DNA from: Candidatus Peribacteria bacterium
Lineage (GTDB): Bacteria; Patescibacteria; JAEDAM01; Absconditabacterales; Absconditicoccaceae
Length of the DNA stretch: 20,095 nt
Direction: 5' to 3'
Assembly: GCA_031261265.1 (NCBI GenBank)
Contig: JAISKI010000025.1
Span: forward strand, 1 to 20,095
In this document: piece by piece, positions 5,578 through 20,095 of the stretch
How positions within the stretch are numbered: the first letter of the stretch is position 1
How the letters are laid out: each line of letters opens with the position of its first letter
The notes under the pieces: model-generated
Database searches by the model: none
Told to the model about the DNA's origin: nothing
What the model saw: only the letters and a program-made list of their open reading frames with translations
Program-made: the position numbers and the translations under genes

Positions 5578-8046
5578 TTACAATACACATTCTACCCCCA
5601 AATTTCCTTCCTTATCCGATGAATCGCGATCAAGCCACTCAATTTCTTTTGCTTTCGTCACCCCTTTTACATCATCTTCAAAAAGCTGGATAGCCTTCTT
5701 CTCTTCCTCGTTTGCGGTAATGATGAGTTTACTTAATTCAGTACCCATAGAGATTTGAGATTCAGATTTGTATTTTCTGACTTGTTCTACGATTTCGAGG
5801 GTGATTTGCATCTTTTCTTGGATTTCAACATCACCTGACGGCTTAAAGTCAGGATATTTGGTGTTGTGAATGGAAAGTGGTATATGTTGAAAATTTGGTC
5901 AATCTTTCTTATTCCAACCGAAATAATCTTGATAAATTTCTTCGGTAATATGTGGTAAATATGGTGCGATAAGCTGGATAATGATATAAAAAACATCATG
6001 TAAAGTTTTTTGTCCACTCTGCTTTTTTATCTCTCCATCCTCAAAGAGTTCGGGTTTATAGAGTCTTACTTTAATAAGTTCAAGATAATTATCACAAAAA
6101 TCTTTTCGGAAAAATTCCTCAAATGCAATCTTGGCTAATCCGTATTCGTAATGGTCGAGGTGTTCATTCATTTTTTTAACGGTTATAGCCAATCTCTCTC
6201 GAATCCATCTATCTGTTGAGTAGACATTTCATTGGCTTATATATTGGTCTTTATTTCGATCTCCTAACTGCATCTTCACAAATTGGAACGCATTCCACAG
6301 TTTCGTGACCAGCTTTTGACCTTTTTTCAATTCTTCCTCCTCAAACACCATATCTTTTCCGAGCTGTCCTCCTGAGGTCCAATATCTCACGGCATCAGCT
6401 CCTCGTTGTTTAATCAGATTTTCTGGTTCTACTTTTGCATTTCCTGTGGATTTGGAAATTTTCTCACTCTTCCCAGCGAGTACATGCCCTGAAATCATTA
6501 CGTCTTTGAAGGGAATCTCTCCCGTTCTTAAATAATTTTGCAGGGTTGTGTAAAGTAATCGGGTTCTAATAATATCGTGAGCTTGGGGTCTGAGAGAAAA
6601 AGGAATCAGATTTCCTTCTCGCCCATCTCTTTTCAAAAAGGTTTCATTAATCAGCGGAGAAAGCCCAGATGTAAACCATGTATCGAGTACGAGGGTTTCA
6701 GCTTCTACCTGCTCTGCACGGTAGCCTTCTGGCAAGTCTCTGGTAGGATCGATAAATCCTTTAGAAAGCTGAGCTTCACTCGGTAGAAGTACTTTATTCG
6801 TCTCTTTTTCATACCAAACAGGAATCGGAATTCAGAATTTTCTTGATCTGGAAATATTCCAATCCCAAGCGAGATTATTGATCCAGTCATTTGATCTTTT
6901 TTTCATAAATTCTGGATATCGGGTCATCTTCTCATTCTGTTGCAACAAGATCTCCTTCTTATCCAATAAATTCACAAATCGCTGATAGACAGGGATAATT
7001 TCAATCGGTGTTTTTCCTCTTTCAGAGATTTTTTTTGCTTGGATAATGGGATCGCGTTTTACGATGACATTAGGCAAGGTCTCAAAATACTCCATAATCT
7101 TTTCTCTCGCCTCGTCTACTTTCATTCCTTCTATTACTTCACAACCCGAATTCTGAATGGTTCCATATCTGCTGATAATCACTTTTTCTGGGAGGTTGTG
7201 CTTTTGCACCCAATACACATCGGTTTCATCCCCATAGCTACAACACATTACTACTCAGCTTCCTTTATCCATTTTTACTTTATCATCTCCGAGCAAAGGC
7301 ACCGTGTCTCACAGCGGAGTAGTGATTTGTCTTCCAATATATTTTGAAAATCTCTCGTCATCTGGATGAGCAAATACTGCTACACAAGCTGGGAGCATTT
7401 CAGGTCTCGTTGTTGCGATCACGAGTTTCTCTCCATCATCAAGGGTAAAATTCAAATAGTTGAAAAACTCATTAAACTCTTTTTCTTCAGTTTCTGCCTG
7501 TGCAATGGTAGTCTGATTTTTAGTACATCGTAGTGCAGGAAACTGTTTCCCTACGATATCTCCCTTTTTGTACATTTCCACAAATCTTTTCTGTACGAGC
7601 TGTTGCACTTCTGGAGAGATAGTTGCATAGGTCCTTTTCCAATCAATAGAAAATCCGAGTGACTGCCAGAGAGCTTTATAGAGGTCTCTATACTTTTGGT
7701 TCACTTCCAAGCATTTCTCTACGAAATCATTTCTGTCCATTTCTTTAATATTGATTTTCAATTCTCTTTCCACGAGTTGCTCAGTAGGAATCCCATTATC
7801 ATCATATCCCATCGGATAAAAGACATTAAACCCTTTCATTCTCTTGTATCTCGCGATAATTTCCGCTTGGGTATAGGAAAAGATGTGTCCAATGTGGAGT
7901 TTTCCACTGACGGTTGGGGGAGGAGTATCAAAAGAAAAAATCTGACTTGGGTCGGTTCTTGTGAGATCAAAAGCGTTGGTCTGCTGTTCTTCTCGGAACT
8001 GTTGCCATTTGGCTTCAGATTCCTGAAAATTATATTTATTTGCCAT
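5578..8046 (-). CDS. valS: Valyl-tRNA synthetase
   Basis: An 822-aa class Ia synthetase charging tRNA-Val. Landmarks: PPPTVSGKLHIGH (HIGH at 51-54), editing-domain VIATTRPEMLPACVAV and HPDDERF, AWDWNISRSRKFGIPIPVW, DTWFTSGLSP, RPQAHDIIRT-W-LLYT, KISKS at 529-533 (a KMSKS variant), anticodon-binding region with FFW-KDFCDNYLELIK, and a Lys/Glu-rich C-terminal tail. The sequence style resembles the archaeal-like ValRS found in several bacteria. TGA encodes Gly at several points, including RKFGIP, splitting the gene into at least five pieces under the standard code. CGA codons at 6559-6561 and 6106-6108 fall on conserved Trp. It follows ileS by 32 bases on the same strand, without a Shine-Dalgarno sequence. 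No inserted domains are seen, unlike ileS. Confidence 0.95.
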
Positions 8047-8078: not shown

Positions 8079-11000
8079 TTAATCAATCTTTATGTTCAAC
8101 TTCTGCAAAGGCTGTTTCACAGCGATTTTATTCTTTGCACGGACGAAGAGGGCAAGTTTGATGATTTTACGGACGGTGGCAGTTTCTTCGATGAGGGATT
8201 GGTTGATGTAATGTTGGTTCGCGATAGGTCGAGAGGAGAGGTGGATGGAATCAAACCCCCCGTCCTTCGGACGACCCCCTTCTCAGGGGGTTCAATGGTT
8301 CGTTTCCGTGAAGTTGGCTAGTTGTAATCGCAAATATTCTGTGATAAATGGGGTGAACGGTGCGAGGATTTGCAAATATCTTTTCAAGACATAAAAGAGG
8401 GTAGCATAAGCAGCATTTTTATCTTCATTCATTCCATTCGCTCGGAAACGGCGACGGCTTCTTCTCAATCGTCGATTGGTGAGTTTATCCATAAAATCCA
8501 TTGCGGATTTCGTTGCTTCGTCCAAGATGTAGTTTTGCAAATGTCCGTCCACTTCAATCAGCGTTTTGTTCAGTTCTGCGAGAATTCGTTTATCGAGGTC
8601 ATTCGTTAATGCGTAGGTGGGAAGCTCAATGATTTCGGTGTTTTGGAAAGCAAATTGACCTTTTTCGTAAGAAGCACCGTAGAGTAGATTTCGTAGTCTT
8701 CTAATTTTTCCTTTATTGCTAACAATCAGAATTTTCTTTCCTTTGTGCTGTTGTAAAAATTCCAGATAGGCTTTTGGATTTCCTTCTTTTGTGAAATCTT
8801 CTGTTTCAGAAACGATTGCTGTTTCTTTATTCGCATAGTCTTTCATTACTTTTTGAACAGCTTTTGTAGTTTCTTGCACTCTCAAAAAATCGTTATCAAT
8901 GATGATATCGGGTTGGATTCTTAGCACTTTTTCAATGAATTCTTTACTTTCCAACGATGTTTTTCCCTGCTCTGTCAGGGGTGCGGAACTATCCGATTCG
9001 TCCTTATTACTCGCTTCGGCGTGCCTCATAAAATACATCTCCGTTCCGTCAGATTTTCGATTATCAATTTTTGCATAGGTTTCAAAAAAGTTGAAGACAT
9101 TCTGCAAGGGGAGGGTGAAGTCCTTGAATGCCTGCTCCGTGCCTTTTTCGTTAAATCTCATCGGTTCGGCTTTCACACTTGGGGAAGAGAGCATATGGAG
9201 CCTGAAACTATCGCCTCCTCGCTTCTCAATCAGTCCCTGAGGGTCGGGGTAGTTTTTCAGACTTTTAGACATTTTCTTTCCATCTTCTGCGAGGATAATC
9301 CCGTTTACCACGACATTTTTCATCGCATTTTCGCCTTTGATAGCGTGTCAGAGGATATGTAGCGTTCTAAATCGTCCTCTCGTTTGGTCTAGTCCTTCTG
9401 CGATGAAATCAGCGGTGAAAGTCTGAATGTTGGTAGATTTTTTCCCTGTGGTGGTGTCTATGAGGAAATCATAAAATCTTCCGTTTCTAATTTTAACTTC
9501 TGTTTTGGTTGGGTCTTCGTTGAGTTGATAGGTGATACCGTCAAAATATCTTTTACATTGAAGAATAGGAAATCGGTGAGTGCTGGCGATAACTTGTTTT
9601 CCTGCATATTTTTTTATCTCTTCCAAGAAATCATTTATTCTATCTTCTACTTTTCTTCGCTCTGCTTCTCTGTTATTGGCAAGTTCTCTGTAATTTTCTA
9701 ATTTGCTCGTGTCTATTTTCCGTTCCATAATTCTTGCGTCCAGATAGATATTTTTTTCTATTTCAATATCCGTGAAATCTTGCCAACGGAAAGTACCGTT
9801 TTTCATCGCTTCATCAAAGCGTTTCTTCGTTTCAAGGTATTTTGGGTGTTCTGTAAGCTTTCGTCCAAAGGTTTTTTCAAAGTAAGGTTCAATAGTTTGT
9901 ATAGCTCTGGATAAAAGTGATACATAGAAAATGGTATCAGCTTTTTTTACTTCTTTTTCAATCTTCTCTACAATGTCTTGTGCTTGTTTTTTCCCTTTTT
10001 CTGTGAGTTCATTTGTATCATCTCGGTAATCATACCCTGTGATTTCCCCCTCTGCTCTTTTTTTATTGCACATTGATTGTCCGTGTCTGATGAGGGAAAG
10101 TTTACAAGTCTGGTTGTCCAGTTTCATCTCATCTTGTCCGATATAATGCTCCTGACCGAAGGGCATTGACCCACTTTCAAATCGGCAATCCATCACTTCG
10201 GGAATTCTCTTGTAAGTTTTCCCGTTTTTCACGAACCAGTAATTATCCACATAGGGTTTGTGCAAGTCGACTTCTTTTTGTCTATTGTTATCTCGGTAAT
10301 GAATAGCAAAATTTCCCTTTGCATTTTCTCCATTATTTTTGAGATACCATTTAGGATAAAAAGAACGATTAGATAAAACTTTTTTATGTTCTTCTGGACT
10401 AATACAGTCTTTGCACACCTGTCTTTGATAAGTAAGTGGTAATCCGTGAGAAACGGAAATAATCGTGGAAGTCGGGAATTTTTTGCTGATGCTTTTAAGA
10501 TAAGAGGTACTTCTTGCAACGATTTGTTCTATGGTTTCATCATCAGTTTTTAGTGTTCTATCGTTGCAAACTTGGTCTTGTCTGGTTTGTCGTAATACTT
10601 CTGTAATTCTAAAATCAACGAAAATTTTCTCTCCAATCTCAAACAAATATTCGTTCTTGTCTTCTTCCAGATATGAAATAATGTTGTGTTTATCTCGTAA
10701 ATCGCGGAATTTCTTTTGCACTTCTTCATACTTTGTTCTGATATTTTTCACTTCATTTTCTCCGTACTTGTCGTTCAAAAATGGCACAATGGTTTGTCGC
10801 ACTCTTTCCATAGGGGAAAGTACGATGACTAAGTCTTTTTCATTTTTCAAATGCTGTAAATTTTGTCTGATTTGTTCAGAATGTTGTAGTCCTTCTTCGT
10901 TCAAAAGAGCCTTATCGCCGTAATTATCCTGTTTTTTCTCTTCATTATAATATGTTCTTCCGTGTCTTATCAAAATATGTTTCGTGATATTCTTGCTACC

Positions 11001-12998
11001 AGACCTAGAAAGCTGATAGATTTCTTCCAGTGTTCCTACGGAAAAAGTGTCGCTTTCATCATCGACATTCTGCCAAATCGGAAGAGGGCTTCCTCGATAA
11101 CGGTTTCTGGCGATATTTCGGTCAGGGGCTTGTTGCAATCCGTTCACAAAACGGTTTTTCACACTTTCTGGGACAAAATTCATTTTTTCTGCCTCTTTCC
11201 GAGTTTCAGCATTCATCTCTTGTTCCTTAATAAATCGGCTCGACATCGCTTTGCTAATCAATGGCGTGTGGCACCTTCGGCAGTGTGGGTAGCTGTGCGT
11301 GATACTTTCTGACTTAATCAGATTTTTTTCTGTTTTTAGTCTTTCGATAATGGTTTTGTTGATATTCAGGACACTTTCTCCTGTGTAGTCATAAATCTGT
11401 TCATCAAATTCTCCGTATTCATTTACGGGCATAAAGAGCCATTCCAGAGCGTTTTTCGCACCCAGTAATTTCGCCACAGCACCAAAATCCTCCTCTCCAA
11501 AGGTCGGAGCGATATGCACAATTCCTGTTCCGTCTTCGGTACTCACGAAATCAGCATTGAGCACTTGAAAAAACTGATTTTTGTATTCTTGTTTAATCTC
11601 CGACTTCGTGATGTAGTCAAAGAGGGGAGTATAGTGCAGACCCTGCAATTCTTTTCCTTTGAAGGTCCTGATTGGGAGGTAGTCCTCAGGATTTTTGTAG
11701 TATTTTTTGATGAGGTTGGTGGCGAGAATGTAGTATTCTTTGCTGGCGAAATCGTAGACCATTGTGTAGTCTATATTCTCCCCCGTTGCGAGGAACATAT
11801 TGCTTGGAAGGGTTCGTGGGGTGGTGGTTCGGGCTAATAAGAAGATTCCAGAAGATTTTGCCAGAAGATTATCAGAAGATTGGTCAGCAGAAATTTTCTG
11901 TGGGATTTCTTTGATATAGGTGTAGATATTCCAAAATTGGAACATCAATTCTTCAGTATCTTCCATGATATTCCCCTCAATTCTTACTCCAAAACCGAGT
12001 GCATTCTCTGAAGGTTCTATTCCTACTCGGACAAGTTGAGTATGTTTATCTGTCTCTTTTATTTGAGGTTCTCCTATAATTTTTACTTCATAGGTGTGCT
12101 GAAGCACGCATACCCCTCCTATAATTTCTTTGAATGATCCCAGATAGTGTGCTTCTTGAATTTCTACACCAACCTCTTCTTTGAGCTCTCTAGTGATTGC
12201 TTGTTCAGCATTTTCCCCTTTGTTTACTTTCCCACCAGGTGCTTCAAAGTTATGTTTTTGTGTGTTAAAAATTTGCAAGATCTCTCCTTTATCGTTTTTG
12301 ATAATAGCCCTAACATATTGTCCTACACCATCTTCAGTAAGTTCAAATTTTTCTCCTCGTTCTGCTTGTGTCGCCATTGGATTGAGCTGAAATTTTACCG
12401 TAATCGCGGTATCCGTCTTGTCTTCATATCCTTCGCTTACTTCGTTATTCGCCAGTGGTGTTGCACAGCTTGGACAGTATCGTTGCACTTTGAAGCCCTT
12501 ATACACGAGATTATCTTTGTAGATTTTATCAAAACAGTAAATCACGCTTTCCATAAAATCCAAATCCATGGTGCGATACTCATTATCTACATCAGCTCGG
12601 CGAGCGGTGTGGTCAATGAACCATTTCCAAATTTCGTTGGTATCATTCACATAGGCTCTACACTTTTCGACAAAGCTTTCAATTCAGATTTTTGTCTCTA
12701 TATCTCTTTTTCCATCAATTCAGAGAGCTTTTTCTACGGCTTTTTCCACAGGTAATCAGTGGCAGTCCCAACCTCGTTTTCTCTTTACTTGATAGCCTCT
12801 CATCGTCATATATCTCGGAATTAAGTCTTTAATTGCACCAGCGAGGAGGTGTCCGTAATGGGGAGTACCAGAGGCGAAAGGAGGACCATCGAAAAATCTG
12901 AAAGTCATTTTTTCGCTTCTTTCATCAATGGAGCGTTGGAAAGTATTGTCGCTTTTTCGGAATTTGATGATGGAGTCCATAAGTTCAAGATTGGTCAT
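8079..12998 (-). CDS. ileS: Isoleucyl-tRNA synthetase with inserted NUDIX and three histidine-phosphatase domains
   Basis: A single 1639-aa frame. IleRS landmarks in order: PHYGHLLAG (HIGH motif, 47-50), WDCHGLPVEK, RWADVDNEYRTMD, CPSCATPL, editing-site TTTPWTLPSN (about 391-400) and GTGIVHIAPTFGEEDF, HCWRCHTPL, DWNIARNRYWGSPLPIW, DLHKPYVDN, GLDQTRGWF, KMSKS (1242-1246), NWWLRRSRRRFW, and a C-terminal HLSSWP segment. Foreign domains interrupt it: NUDIX at about 210-380 with a perfect Nudix box (256-278); histidine phosphatase 1 at about 670-861 (RHG 678-680, second His 851); phosphatase 2 at about 964-1176 (RHG 971-973, His1141); phosphatase 3 at about 1320-1461 (RHA, second His replaced by Asn1428). 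TGA encodes Gly and CGA encodes Trp throughout. The IleRS core looks complete and presumably charges tRNA-Ile; roles of the inserts are unknown. Confidence 0.93.
8253..8292. repeat. In-frame palindromic element near the 3' end of ileS
   Basis: On the + strand, outer arms AACCCCC / GGGGGTT enclose hairpin CGTCC-TTC-GGACG (8261-8273) and hairpin ACCCCCT-TCTC-AGGGGGT (8274-8291). It encodes a Gly/Pro-rich linker between the anticodon-binding domain and the HLSSWP segment of IleRS. The two-hairpin plan, with a TTC loop then a C-rich/G-rich arm pair, matches the tsaD element at 4798-4828. Confidence 0.7.
11840..11881. repeat. Four AGAAGATT direct repeats inside ileS
   Basis: AGAAGATT occurs at 11840, 11850, 11863 and 11874 (+ strand), coding on the minus strand for the short segment just before the TTTPWTLPSN editing motif, at the downstream edge of the NUDIX insertion. 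The same octamer makes up the tandem repeat upstream of ileS. Confidence 0.6.
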
Positions 12999-19523: not shown

Positions 19524-19639
19524 GGTGGTGCTGATGTGGAGTATGGAAACACCTGTTCCCATTCCGAATACAGAAGTTAAGCATATTCCAGTCGATGATA
19601 CTGGTGGGCTTCCCGCTGGGAAAGTAGATTAGTGCTACC
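19524..19639 (+). rRNA. rrf: 5S ribosomal RNA
   Basis: About 116 bases with 5S landmarks: terminal helix GGTGGTGCT (19524-19532) pairing with AGTGCTACC (19631-19639) using GU wobbles, the conserved core CCCATTCCGAATACAGAAG with GTTAAGC following, and GGTGGGCTTCCCGCTGGGAAAGTAG in the later helices, quoted here as separate blocks. It lies on the same strand as and about 110 bases before 16S, reversing the usual 16S-23S-5S order. Confidence 0.9.
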
Positions 19640-19647
19640 ATTTAGGG

Positions 19648-19702
19648 CGGTTGAAACCGTTGCAGAAGCCACACTTGGTGTGGTCCCGTACGAAGCTACG
19701 GG
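19648..19702. repeat. Three consecutive hairpins in the 5S-16S spacer
   Basis: CGGT-TGAA-ACCG (19648-19659), CCACAC-TTG-GTGTGG (19669-19683) and CCCGTA-CGAAGC-TACGGG (19685-19702). They do not form a tRNA. They may terminate or process 5S RNA, or be relatives of the palindromic elements found inside genes. Confidence 0.6.
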
Positions 19703-19749
19703 GTGATCTTTACCAATACAAGAAAGAATTAGAGCTAAGATGTATACTT

Positions 19750-20095
19750 TTTTTGAAGAGTTTGACCCTGGCTCAGGATGAACGCTAGCGGAACGCCTAA
19801 CACATGCAAGTCGAACGAATTCTGCGTTGTAGCAATACATAGTAGAATTAGTGGCAAACGAGCGAGTAACGCGTACCTAACTTGCCCTCGAGATGAGAAT
19901 AACTACAGAGATGTAGCTAATCCTCAATATGCTCACATGAAGTGAAATTCTTTAGTGAGGAAAGATTTATCGCTCGGGGAGAGGGGTGCGTCCTATCAGG
20001 TAGTTGGTTGAGGTAATGGCTCACCAAGCCTATGACGGGTAGCCGGTCTGAGATGATGTCCGGCCGCGATGGGACTGAGATACGGCCCATACTCC
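19750..20095 (+). rRNA. rrs: 16S ribosomal RNA, 5' part
   Basis: The conserved 5' sequence AGAGTTTGACCCTGGCTCAG begins at 19757 (E. coli position 8), followed by ATGAACGCTAGCGGAACGCC, ACACATGCAAGTCGAACGA and the GGACTGAGATACGGCCC region at the window end. The gene runs out of the window after about 346 bases; the 5' end is estimated from alignment to E. coli numbering. The shortened V1 and V2 regions fit a CPR lineage. Classification would be settled by the full 16S. Confidence 0.95.

Follow-up and report, generated by a model that had tools for sequence, protein, structure and literature searches.

The window analyzed here, a stretch of 20,095 nucleotides from a Candidatus Peribacteria bacterium (contig JAISKI010000025.1), encodes on its minus strand a complete isoleucyl-tRNA synthetase (IleRS) that is interrupted by four inserted enzyme domains, designated I1 to I4 in the order of the protein. 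On balance and with clear reservation, we favor the reading that the Nudix domain I1 and the histidine phosphatases I2 and I3 are likely active, that the histidine phosphatase I4 is likely dead, and that all four are probably passengers on an essential chassis and not parts of the charging machinery. Since the interrupted gene is apparently the sole IleRS, its core must work. The predicted folding of the inserts, the intact active sites of I1 to I3 and the selection acting on I1, I2 and I4 indicate that most of them are probably enzymes, and their turnover together with their varied chemistries argues that a permissive chassis hosts them as guests and that they are not organs of charging.

The gene is a single open reading frame with an ATG at 12998 and a stop codon at 8081-8079, and its product has 1639 residues. 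Read with CGA/CGG as Trp and TGA as Gly, the product matches the IleRS profile TIGR00392 (ileS) with 766 bits in five stretches, compared to a cut-off of 621.4 bits. Together with the PHYGH motif at residue 46, the KMSKS motif at residue 1242, the HLSSWP segment close to the C-terminus and an anticodon-binding domain at residues 1469-1633, this identifies the protein as an IleRS. The Pfam matches of the whole protein are tRNA-synt_1 (381 bits), Anticodon_1 (114 bits), NUDIX (46 bits) and His_Phos_1 (109 bits in five stretches), and among the eight matches up to E=1 there is no Hint or splicing domain that would point to an intein. In an alignment with the IleRS from yeast, which is next to that from Candida the closest solved protein to the core, followed by IleRS2 from Priestia, the core falls into five blocks. 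The surplus sequence lies at residues 206-386, 673-909, 963-1194 and 1308-1464 of the window protein, that is near positions 211/219, 498, 552/555 and 667/689 in yeast numbering. A first-pass annotation, made from the sequence alone and giving no strand, had described a complete IleRS of this length with one Nudix and three histidine phosphatase domains at four separate sites between conserved synthetase blocks, to be read with UGA as Gly and CGA as Trp. Profile, Pfam domains and yeast alignment agree with this description, and only the implied activity of the third phosphatase domain, I4, has to be taken back, as discussed below.

Features of the interrupted IleRS gene, listed from the N- to the C-terminus of the protein
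Feature	Coordinates	Strand	Description
IleRS core block 1	12381..12998	-	residues 1-206; N-terminal half of catalytic domain, HYGH motif
I1 Nudix	11862..12380	-	residues 207-379; directly ahead of editing domain; complete Nudix box 256-278; PF00293 229-327
IleRS core block 2	10995..11861	-	residues 380-668; catalytic core plus editing domain with TTTPWTLP; structural match to the solved IleRS editing domain 1wk8
I2 histidine phosphatase	10272..10994	-	residues 669-909; R678 H679 R732 E800 H851
IleRS core block 3	10113..10271	-	residues 910-962, DCWFESGSMPFGQEHY; yeast IleRS alignment
I3 histidine phosphatase	9423..10112	-	residues 963-1192; R971 H972 R1031 E1092 H1141
IleRS core block 4	9075..9422	-	residues 1193-1308; KMSKS at 1242-1246
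I4 SixA-like histidine phosphatase	8613..9074	-	residues 1309-1462; Asn1428 where second catalytic His belongs
IleRS core block 5	8082..8612	-	residues 1463-1639; anticodon-binding domain, Pfam PF08264

The genetic code used for this translation was checked by comparing codons with alignment columns of relatives. At CGA codons, Trp is the commonest residue in 19 of 26 columns and Arg in none (columns with at least five unambiguous relatives), and all four scorable TGA columns are Gly. As a control, ordinary Arg codons correspond to Arg in 34 of at least 46 columns. The gene contains only two CGG codons, and the one scorable column is Val, so that CGG=Trp finds no support in this column test. 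The unusual code agrees with that given for Absconditabacteria in PMC8629427. There, CGA is below 37 per 10,000 in the aligned Pfam domains of all Absconditabacteria studied, whereas we count approximately 104 per 10,000 in the window over whole frames and not over aligned Pfam domains only. Across the 12 frames of the window (5755 codons), CGA is used 60 times and TGG 40 times for Trp; in the IleRS gene alone, the numbers are 31 and 9.

I1 possesses the complete box GX5EX7REUXEEXGU and the corresponding predicted fold, and is likely a Nudix hydrolase as judged by these features. All 32 aligned rows retain its three metal-binding glutamates. I2 and I3 exhibit the entire set of histidine phosphatase branch 1, i.e. 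the RHG motif, the second Arg, the acidic residue and the second His. In I2, all 29 rows agree in R, H, R and H, and the acidic residue is Glu in 15 and Asp in 14. The set is incomplete in I4. All four catalytic residues are present in 14 of 29 rows and the full set is missing in the other 15, and the SixA profile reaches 71.8 bits for the whole protein, summed over three stretches, with a cut-off of 74.5 bits (best stretch: residues 1320-1457). Since Asn1428 replaces the second catalytic His, I4 is probably not active as a histidine phosphatase in the window. These residue counts refer to 32 hand-picked genes, several of which are close kin, and some database rows, e.g. P0003, contain codons that were translated with a different code. 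Outside of Absconditabacteria, we scored 101 histidine phosphatase units, using a profile made from inserts that show RH[GAE]. Their catalytic residues read RHREH in 96, RHRDH in four and RHRDS in one case; 18 further matches were excluded, as they cover one end of the profile only, in most cases the IleRS flank. The 97 units located in IleRS all possess R-H-R-[E/D]-H, and three of the four units in valyl-tRNA synthetases (ValRS) are intact, the fourth lacking the second His.

For fold prediction, the chain was divided into two models built from the alignments A3 and A4; A1 and A2 were discarded, since in these alignments I3 was aligned to the core or to I2 of other rows. In the model of residues 1-962, the confidence score pLDDT is about 90 for I1 (residues 201-370) and 80-95 for I2 between 671 and 860, except for about 61 at 811-820, and it is weak (33-59) at 861-900. 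In the model of residues 905-1639, I3 is mostly at 77-93 with dips of 45-68, and I4 mostly at 85-97 with dips of 66-74. The catalytic halves are poorly predicted, as is to be expected for a divided chain. Foldseek searches with the first model retrieved IleRS, the editing domain 1wk8 (TM-score 0.78-0.79 by target length), MutT and RppH, and searches with the second model retrieved IleRS, SixA and phosphoglycerate mutases. By sequence, I1 has RNA pyrophosphohydrolase, CTP pyrophosphohydrolase and MutT as neighbors and I3 has phosphoglycerate mutases, which does not fix the substrate of either domain.

The architecture recurs in related genomes. A protein search with the interrupted IleRS yielded 7861 relatives, plain IleRS included, and the best 120 of them are mostly 1338-1389 residues long and carry NUDIX and His_Phos domains; all our searches for relatives report the best rows only. 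Thirty-three loci in genome contigs encode relatives (loci are numbered with L and proteins with P in the following), and the full-length ones from Absconditabacteria possess I1, I2 and I4 in matching positions and lack I3. An exception among the Absconditabacteria genes is P0004, called as 1146 residues, which lacks I2. Chance is excluded, since three of the four inserts reappear in the same positions on independent contigs. In the complete genome RAAC1_SR1_1, the only frame above the ileS cut-off is the interrupted gene, and the only two matches to PF00300 (E up to 0.001) are both located within it. A TIGR00392 search of four genomes, RAAC1_SR1_1 among them, gave one frame each above the cut-off, always the interrupted ileS. 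From the essentiality of this function and the single ileS over the cut-off in these four relatives' genomes, we infer that the interrupted IleRS charges tRNA-Ile.

I3 is much rarer. Among large proteins, we detected it only in the window, in P0003 and in P0245, a piece of 945 residues whose I3 is 70% identical to that of the window over 220 residues. This search took proteins of 0.55 to 1.75 times the query length, and stand-alone relatives of I3 were thus beyond its reach.

Within the Patescibacteria, a histidine phosphatase continuous with IleRS flanks occurs in at least 41 of 273 sampled genomes, and all of these cases were read as inserts at profile position 486-508. The number is a lower bound, because the query came from another lineage and did not span the insert of Absconditabacteria. 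In 199 genomes of Bacillota, the phylum of L031 according to its title, no histidine phosphatase within an IleRS was found among the matches listed; these comprise histidine phosphatases in frames of up to 593 residues and IleRS flanks without the domain. There are 357 large proteins with the histidine phosphatase type of the IleRS inserts, and the best 120 all carry the class I synthetase domain PF00133. On a profile of plain IleRS, Nudix inserts are located mostly at positions 214-222, and up to about 299 where the aligner shifted the gap, and histidine phosphatase inserts at about 470-513, 543-546 and 670-676. Some IleRS genes contain tandem histidine phosphatase units. Four frames (L164, L165, L166 and L167) encode a ValRS with a histidine phosphatase insert at a place that approximately corresponds to IleRS site 2, and it is L165 that lacks the second His.

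The combination of inserts varies strongly. Among 162 loci, 44 have none, 56 have an insert at the second site only, and 23 are occupied at the sites of I1, I2 and I4; these loci remained after removal of exact duplicates, were partly chosen for the presence of histidine phosphatases and include partial genes and near-duplicates, a bias that also applies to the 101 units mentioned above. A search of relatives for the same architecture, which the first-pass annotation had suggested as a check, recovered I1, I2 and I4 in Absconditabacteria and I3 in two other large proteins. With regard to uninterrupted IleRS in relatives, which it had named as evidence to the contrary, the answer is mixed: many Patescibacteria possess a plain IleRS, as in the 44 loci without insert, while the full-length genes of Absconditabacteria carry I1, I2 and I4.

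The guests are also not restricted to Nudix and histidine phosphatase domains. Interruptions at four sites occur in the window and also in L163, which hosts a Nudix domain, a serine hydrolase, DUF559 and a histidine phosphatase. The serine hydrolase (PF06821) is also present in frame in L162 and L145, a Y1 transposase-like domain in L152, and an HD domain occurs near the C-terminal end of the histidine phosphatase-bearing IleRS P0137, P0148 and P0211. Near profile position 310, L152 (Y1_Tnp) and L180 both have approximately 180 surplus residues, for which no Pfam match was obtained in L180. In L178 (6481-7600) and L002 (10842-12760), the IleRS is encoded by two frames that are separated where the window carries I3; a stop codon of its own ends the first half, and the second half has an ATG. 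A gene for a UMPH-1 pyrimidine 5'-nucleotidase (207.6 bits) lies between the halves in L178, and frames for DUF559 and DUF4357 lie between them in L002. An intron at the break in L002 was considered and rejected. Rfam yields no match for L002:10500-13500 at E values up to 1, and the stop codon of the first half and the ATG of the second one delimit separate frames; we therefore read L002 as a split gene with foreign genes between its halves. Nor is the stretch a repeat: within the genome of L002, one segment of 187 bases (76%) and one of 27 bases match it a second time, and the genomes of three relatives contain no match.

The histories of the inserts differ from that of the core. P0003 and P0054 are 84-100% identical in windows of 40 residues along the chain, yet P0054 lacks I3; differences between G and W and between R and W were counted as equal in this comparison, because the database rows carry codons read by another code. 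Between the window and P0245, the core blocks are 89-90% identical, whereas I3 is 70% and I2 only 38% identical. In the core-only tree, which does not include P0245, the window is paired with L002 (support 99/97) and P0003 is located in another clade, and the core data reject a grouping of the window with P0003 in one clade (approximately unbiased (AU) test, p 5.8e-5). The tree of I1 unites L012, L082 and L183 (100/100), and the I1 data reject the core clades L012+L008+L009+L020 (AU p 1.5e-4) and L082+L013+L078 (p 2.9e-5). The I2 data reject L014+L015 (p 0.0026). Inserts are gained and lost independently of the core, and apparently they are also exchanged between lineages. In a first tree of histidine phosphatases, drawn without support values, the I3 domains of the window and of P0003 group together next to the I2 clade, as would be expected of an internal copy. 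A supported tree requires 15 label changes for seven site labels. However, we do not claim several independent origins of the histidine phosphatase inserts as firm, since the AU tests do not reject the alternatives despite these changes.

In the closest comparisons, the ratio of nonsynonymous to synonymous substitution rates (dN/dS) is 0.03-0.08 for the core, 0.01-0.09 for I1, 0.10-0.15 for I2 and 0.03-0.23 for I4. Out of 15 rows, these are the eight with at least 82% amino acid identity; they represent seven distinct pairs (L003-L004 equals L003-L067), and the window is part of none. I1, I2 and I4 are under purifying selection in close relatives. I3 has no close pair.

The different domain sets in related bacteria suggest that an essential enzyme serves as a socket for exchangeable parts. 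Whole folded domains would be tolerated at the insert sites as the core fold remains intact, and the cassettes could be supplied by in-frame capture of small hydrolase genes and by recombination between IleRS genes. The retained inserts would hydrolyze small phosphorylated compounds, most likely nucleotides, and would gain a steady expression linked to translation. A more far-reaching idea, which we put forward tentatively and would not bet on, sees in the IleRS of Patescibacteria, and most of all in that of Absconditabacteria, a platform where whole enzymes are captured, duplicated, swapped between lineages, decayed and replaced at a few fixed sites of an essential translation enzyme present in a single copy. 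It might thereby provide these bacteria with their tiny genomes with fast-evolving hydrolases tied to translation that possibly undo damage by toxins or phages to nucleotides or tRNA. Such a turnover of cassettes would resemble that in defense islands or phage tail genes.

Several points weigh against passengers that come and go. Phosphohydrolases dominate among the inserts, and a common chemical purpose would fit this better than random passengers. I1 and I2 have been kept for long, which argues that they are more than tolerated. The dN/dS of the inserts rises up to 0.32-0.45 among seven more distant pairs, several of them saturated, which could reflect domain swaps or weak constraint, and the pairs that include the window are saturated or nearly so. 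With regard to exchange, the groups for the tests were picked after the trees had been seen, and the rejection of the L012 group by the I2 data is weak (p 0.029). Neither a single origin of all histidine phosphatase inserts in IleRS (AU p 0.080) nor one clade for the inserts outside of Absconditabacteria at profile position ~672 (p 0.447) is rejected. The occurrence of I3 in separate clades could result from one old gain and many losses, and the P0003/P0054 pair as well as the two split genes may be misassembled. Finally, as each predicted model contains only one half of the catalytic domain, the models do not give the placement of the inserts relative to the tRNA.

Among the other explanations, the clean-up of by-products, which the first-pass annotation had proposed, fares best, although we consider it unlikely. 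The tethered domains would hydrolyze compounds that arise from or near the synthetase, such as AMP, diadenosine tetraphosphate (Ap4A), released aminoacyl-AMP or signaling nucleotides. This would be in line with the established action of the inserted families, largely on nucleotide phosphates, with the nearest neighbors of the Nudix domain, with the 5'-nucleotidase gene between the split IleRS halves and with the same kind of insert in the ValRS of four genomes. However, unrelated domains are inserted into the same gene, the sets vary among close relatives and conflict in their histories with the core, and I4 is decaying. Moreover, most sampled Patescibacteria lack a histidine phosphatase at the site according to the query used, as do the Bacillota matches listed, and the literature searched on IleRS and Ap4A added nothing in favor.

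Less probable still is a control of nucleotide pools or phosphohistidine, where the Nudix and SixA-type pair would act on nucleoside diphosphate kinase or on nucleoside triphosphate pools. I4 is SixA-like in both profile and fold. The mycobacterial MutT1 is a Nudix domain joined to an RHG phosphatase, and its Nudix domain dephosphorylates the nucleoside diphosphate kinase NDK (PMC11784022), as SixA of E. coli does with Ndk (PMC12934123). By analogy, this action may serve as a lead only for the inserts of the window. Against such a role, I4 has lost the second His there and the full set is missing in 15 of the 29 rows. The same persistence of I4 without a full active site would be expected if the inserts were structural or regulatory domains that stabilize the synthetase or sense nucleotides, with catalysis as a relic. 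We regard this as improbable, too, since the catalytic residues are wholly kept in the I1 rows, in the I2 rows (with Glu or Asp as the acidic residue) and in all 97 IleRS units scored outside of Absconditabacteria. That separate genes were fused by an assembly error, a pseudogene or a misread code can practically be dismissed: the window is a single contig, but numerous independent contigs as well as a complete chromosome share the three-insert architecture, I3 is present on two further contigs, and there is purifying selection in relatives.

Synthetases are regarded as among the most constrained proteins of the cell. An IleRS with up to four foreign enzymes in frame, whose sets vary in close relatives, illustrates that a constrained core can host recurrent insertion and exchange of domains. 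This raises the questions which sites of class I synthetases tolerate whole domains, which would be useful for engineering, and whether tethering of enzymes to translation benefits bacteria with reduced genomes. There are also consequences for annotation. The gene piece P0245 has been named 'broad specificity phosphatase PhoE' by one source, and a wrong genetic code cuts or garbles such IleRS genes.

The partial 16S rRNA gene at the end of the window, 346 bases long, shows 97% identity to the genome of the Absconditabacteria assembly L001 and 96% to that of L002. A 5S rRNA gene immediately precedes the 16S start on the same strand (window 19524-20095); either this order is an uncommon one, or two operons meet here. 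A ValRS gene (822 residues, window 5578-8046) follows 32 bases after the IleRS gene on the same strand. A conserved ileS-valS pair was rejected, since tblastn in the loci of 14 relatives (11-22 kb) revealed only IleRS-like stretches with 23-35% identity; the same query does recover the ValRS of the window.

Compared to the IleRS described by TIGR00392, the window protein shares all core blocks and motifs and adds approximately 800 residues in four inserted domains. The editing (CP1) domains of class I synthetases are likewise folded enzyme domains within the catalytic core. Editing domains work on misacylated products; Nudix and histidine phosphatase families act mainly on nucleotide phosphates. 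Unlike CP1 domains, the inserts of the window are variable among relatives. A discussion of editing domains as insertion-only modules is given in PMC13114784. MutT1 and the window IleRS carry the same two superfamilies on one chain (PMC11784022). However, MutT1 is a stand-alone two-domain protein, N-terminal Nudix and C-terminal RHG domain, without a synthetase, whereas the domains of the window are set apart by IleRS blocks, and the window protein is thus not of the MutT1 type. SixA has the fold nearest to I4, but I4 lacks the second His. No description of an IleRS with Nudix and histidine phosphatase domains, or of Absconditabacteria synthetases built in this way, was found in the literature searched, in agreement with the first-pass annotation, and the NCBI names for such proteins, where given, are 'class I tRNA ligase family protein' or similar. 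A precedent for an additional enzyme domain in IleRS is NF040702, which combines IleRS with an N-acetyltransferase. The domain is a different one; the window protein scores 262 bits with a cut-off of 1999 and has no GNAT among its Pfam matches. Since this family is already curated, IleRS with an extra domain are known as such, and it is the pattern of several sites with exchanging inserts that is new.

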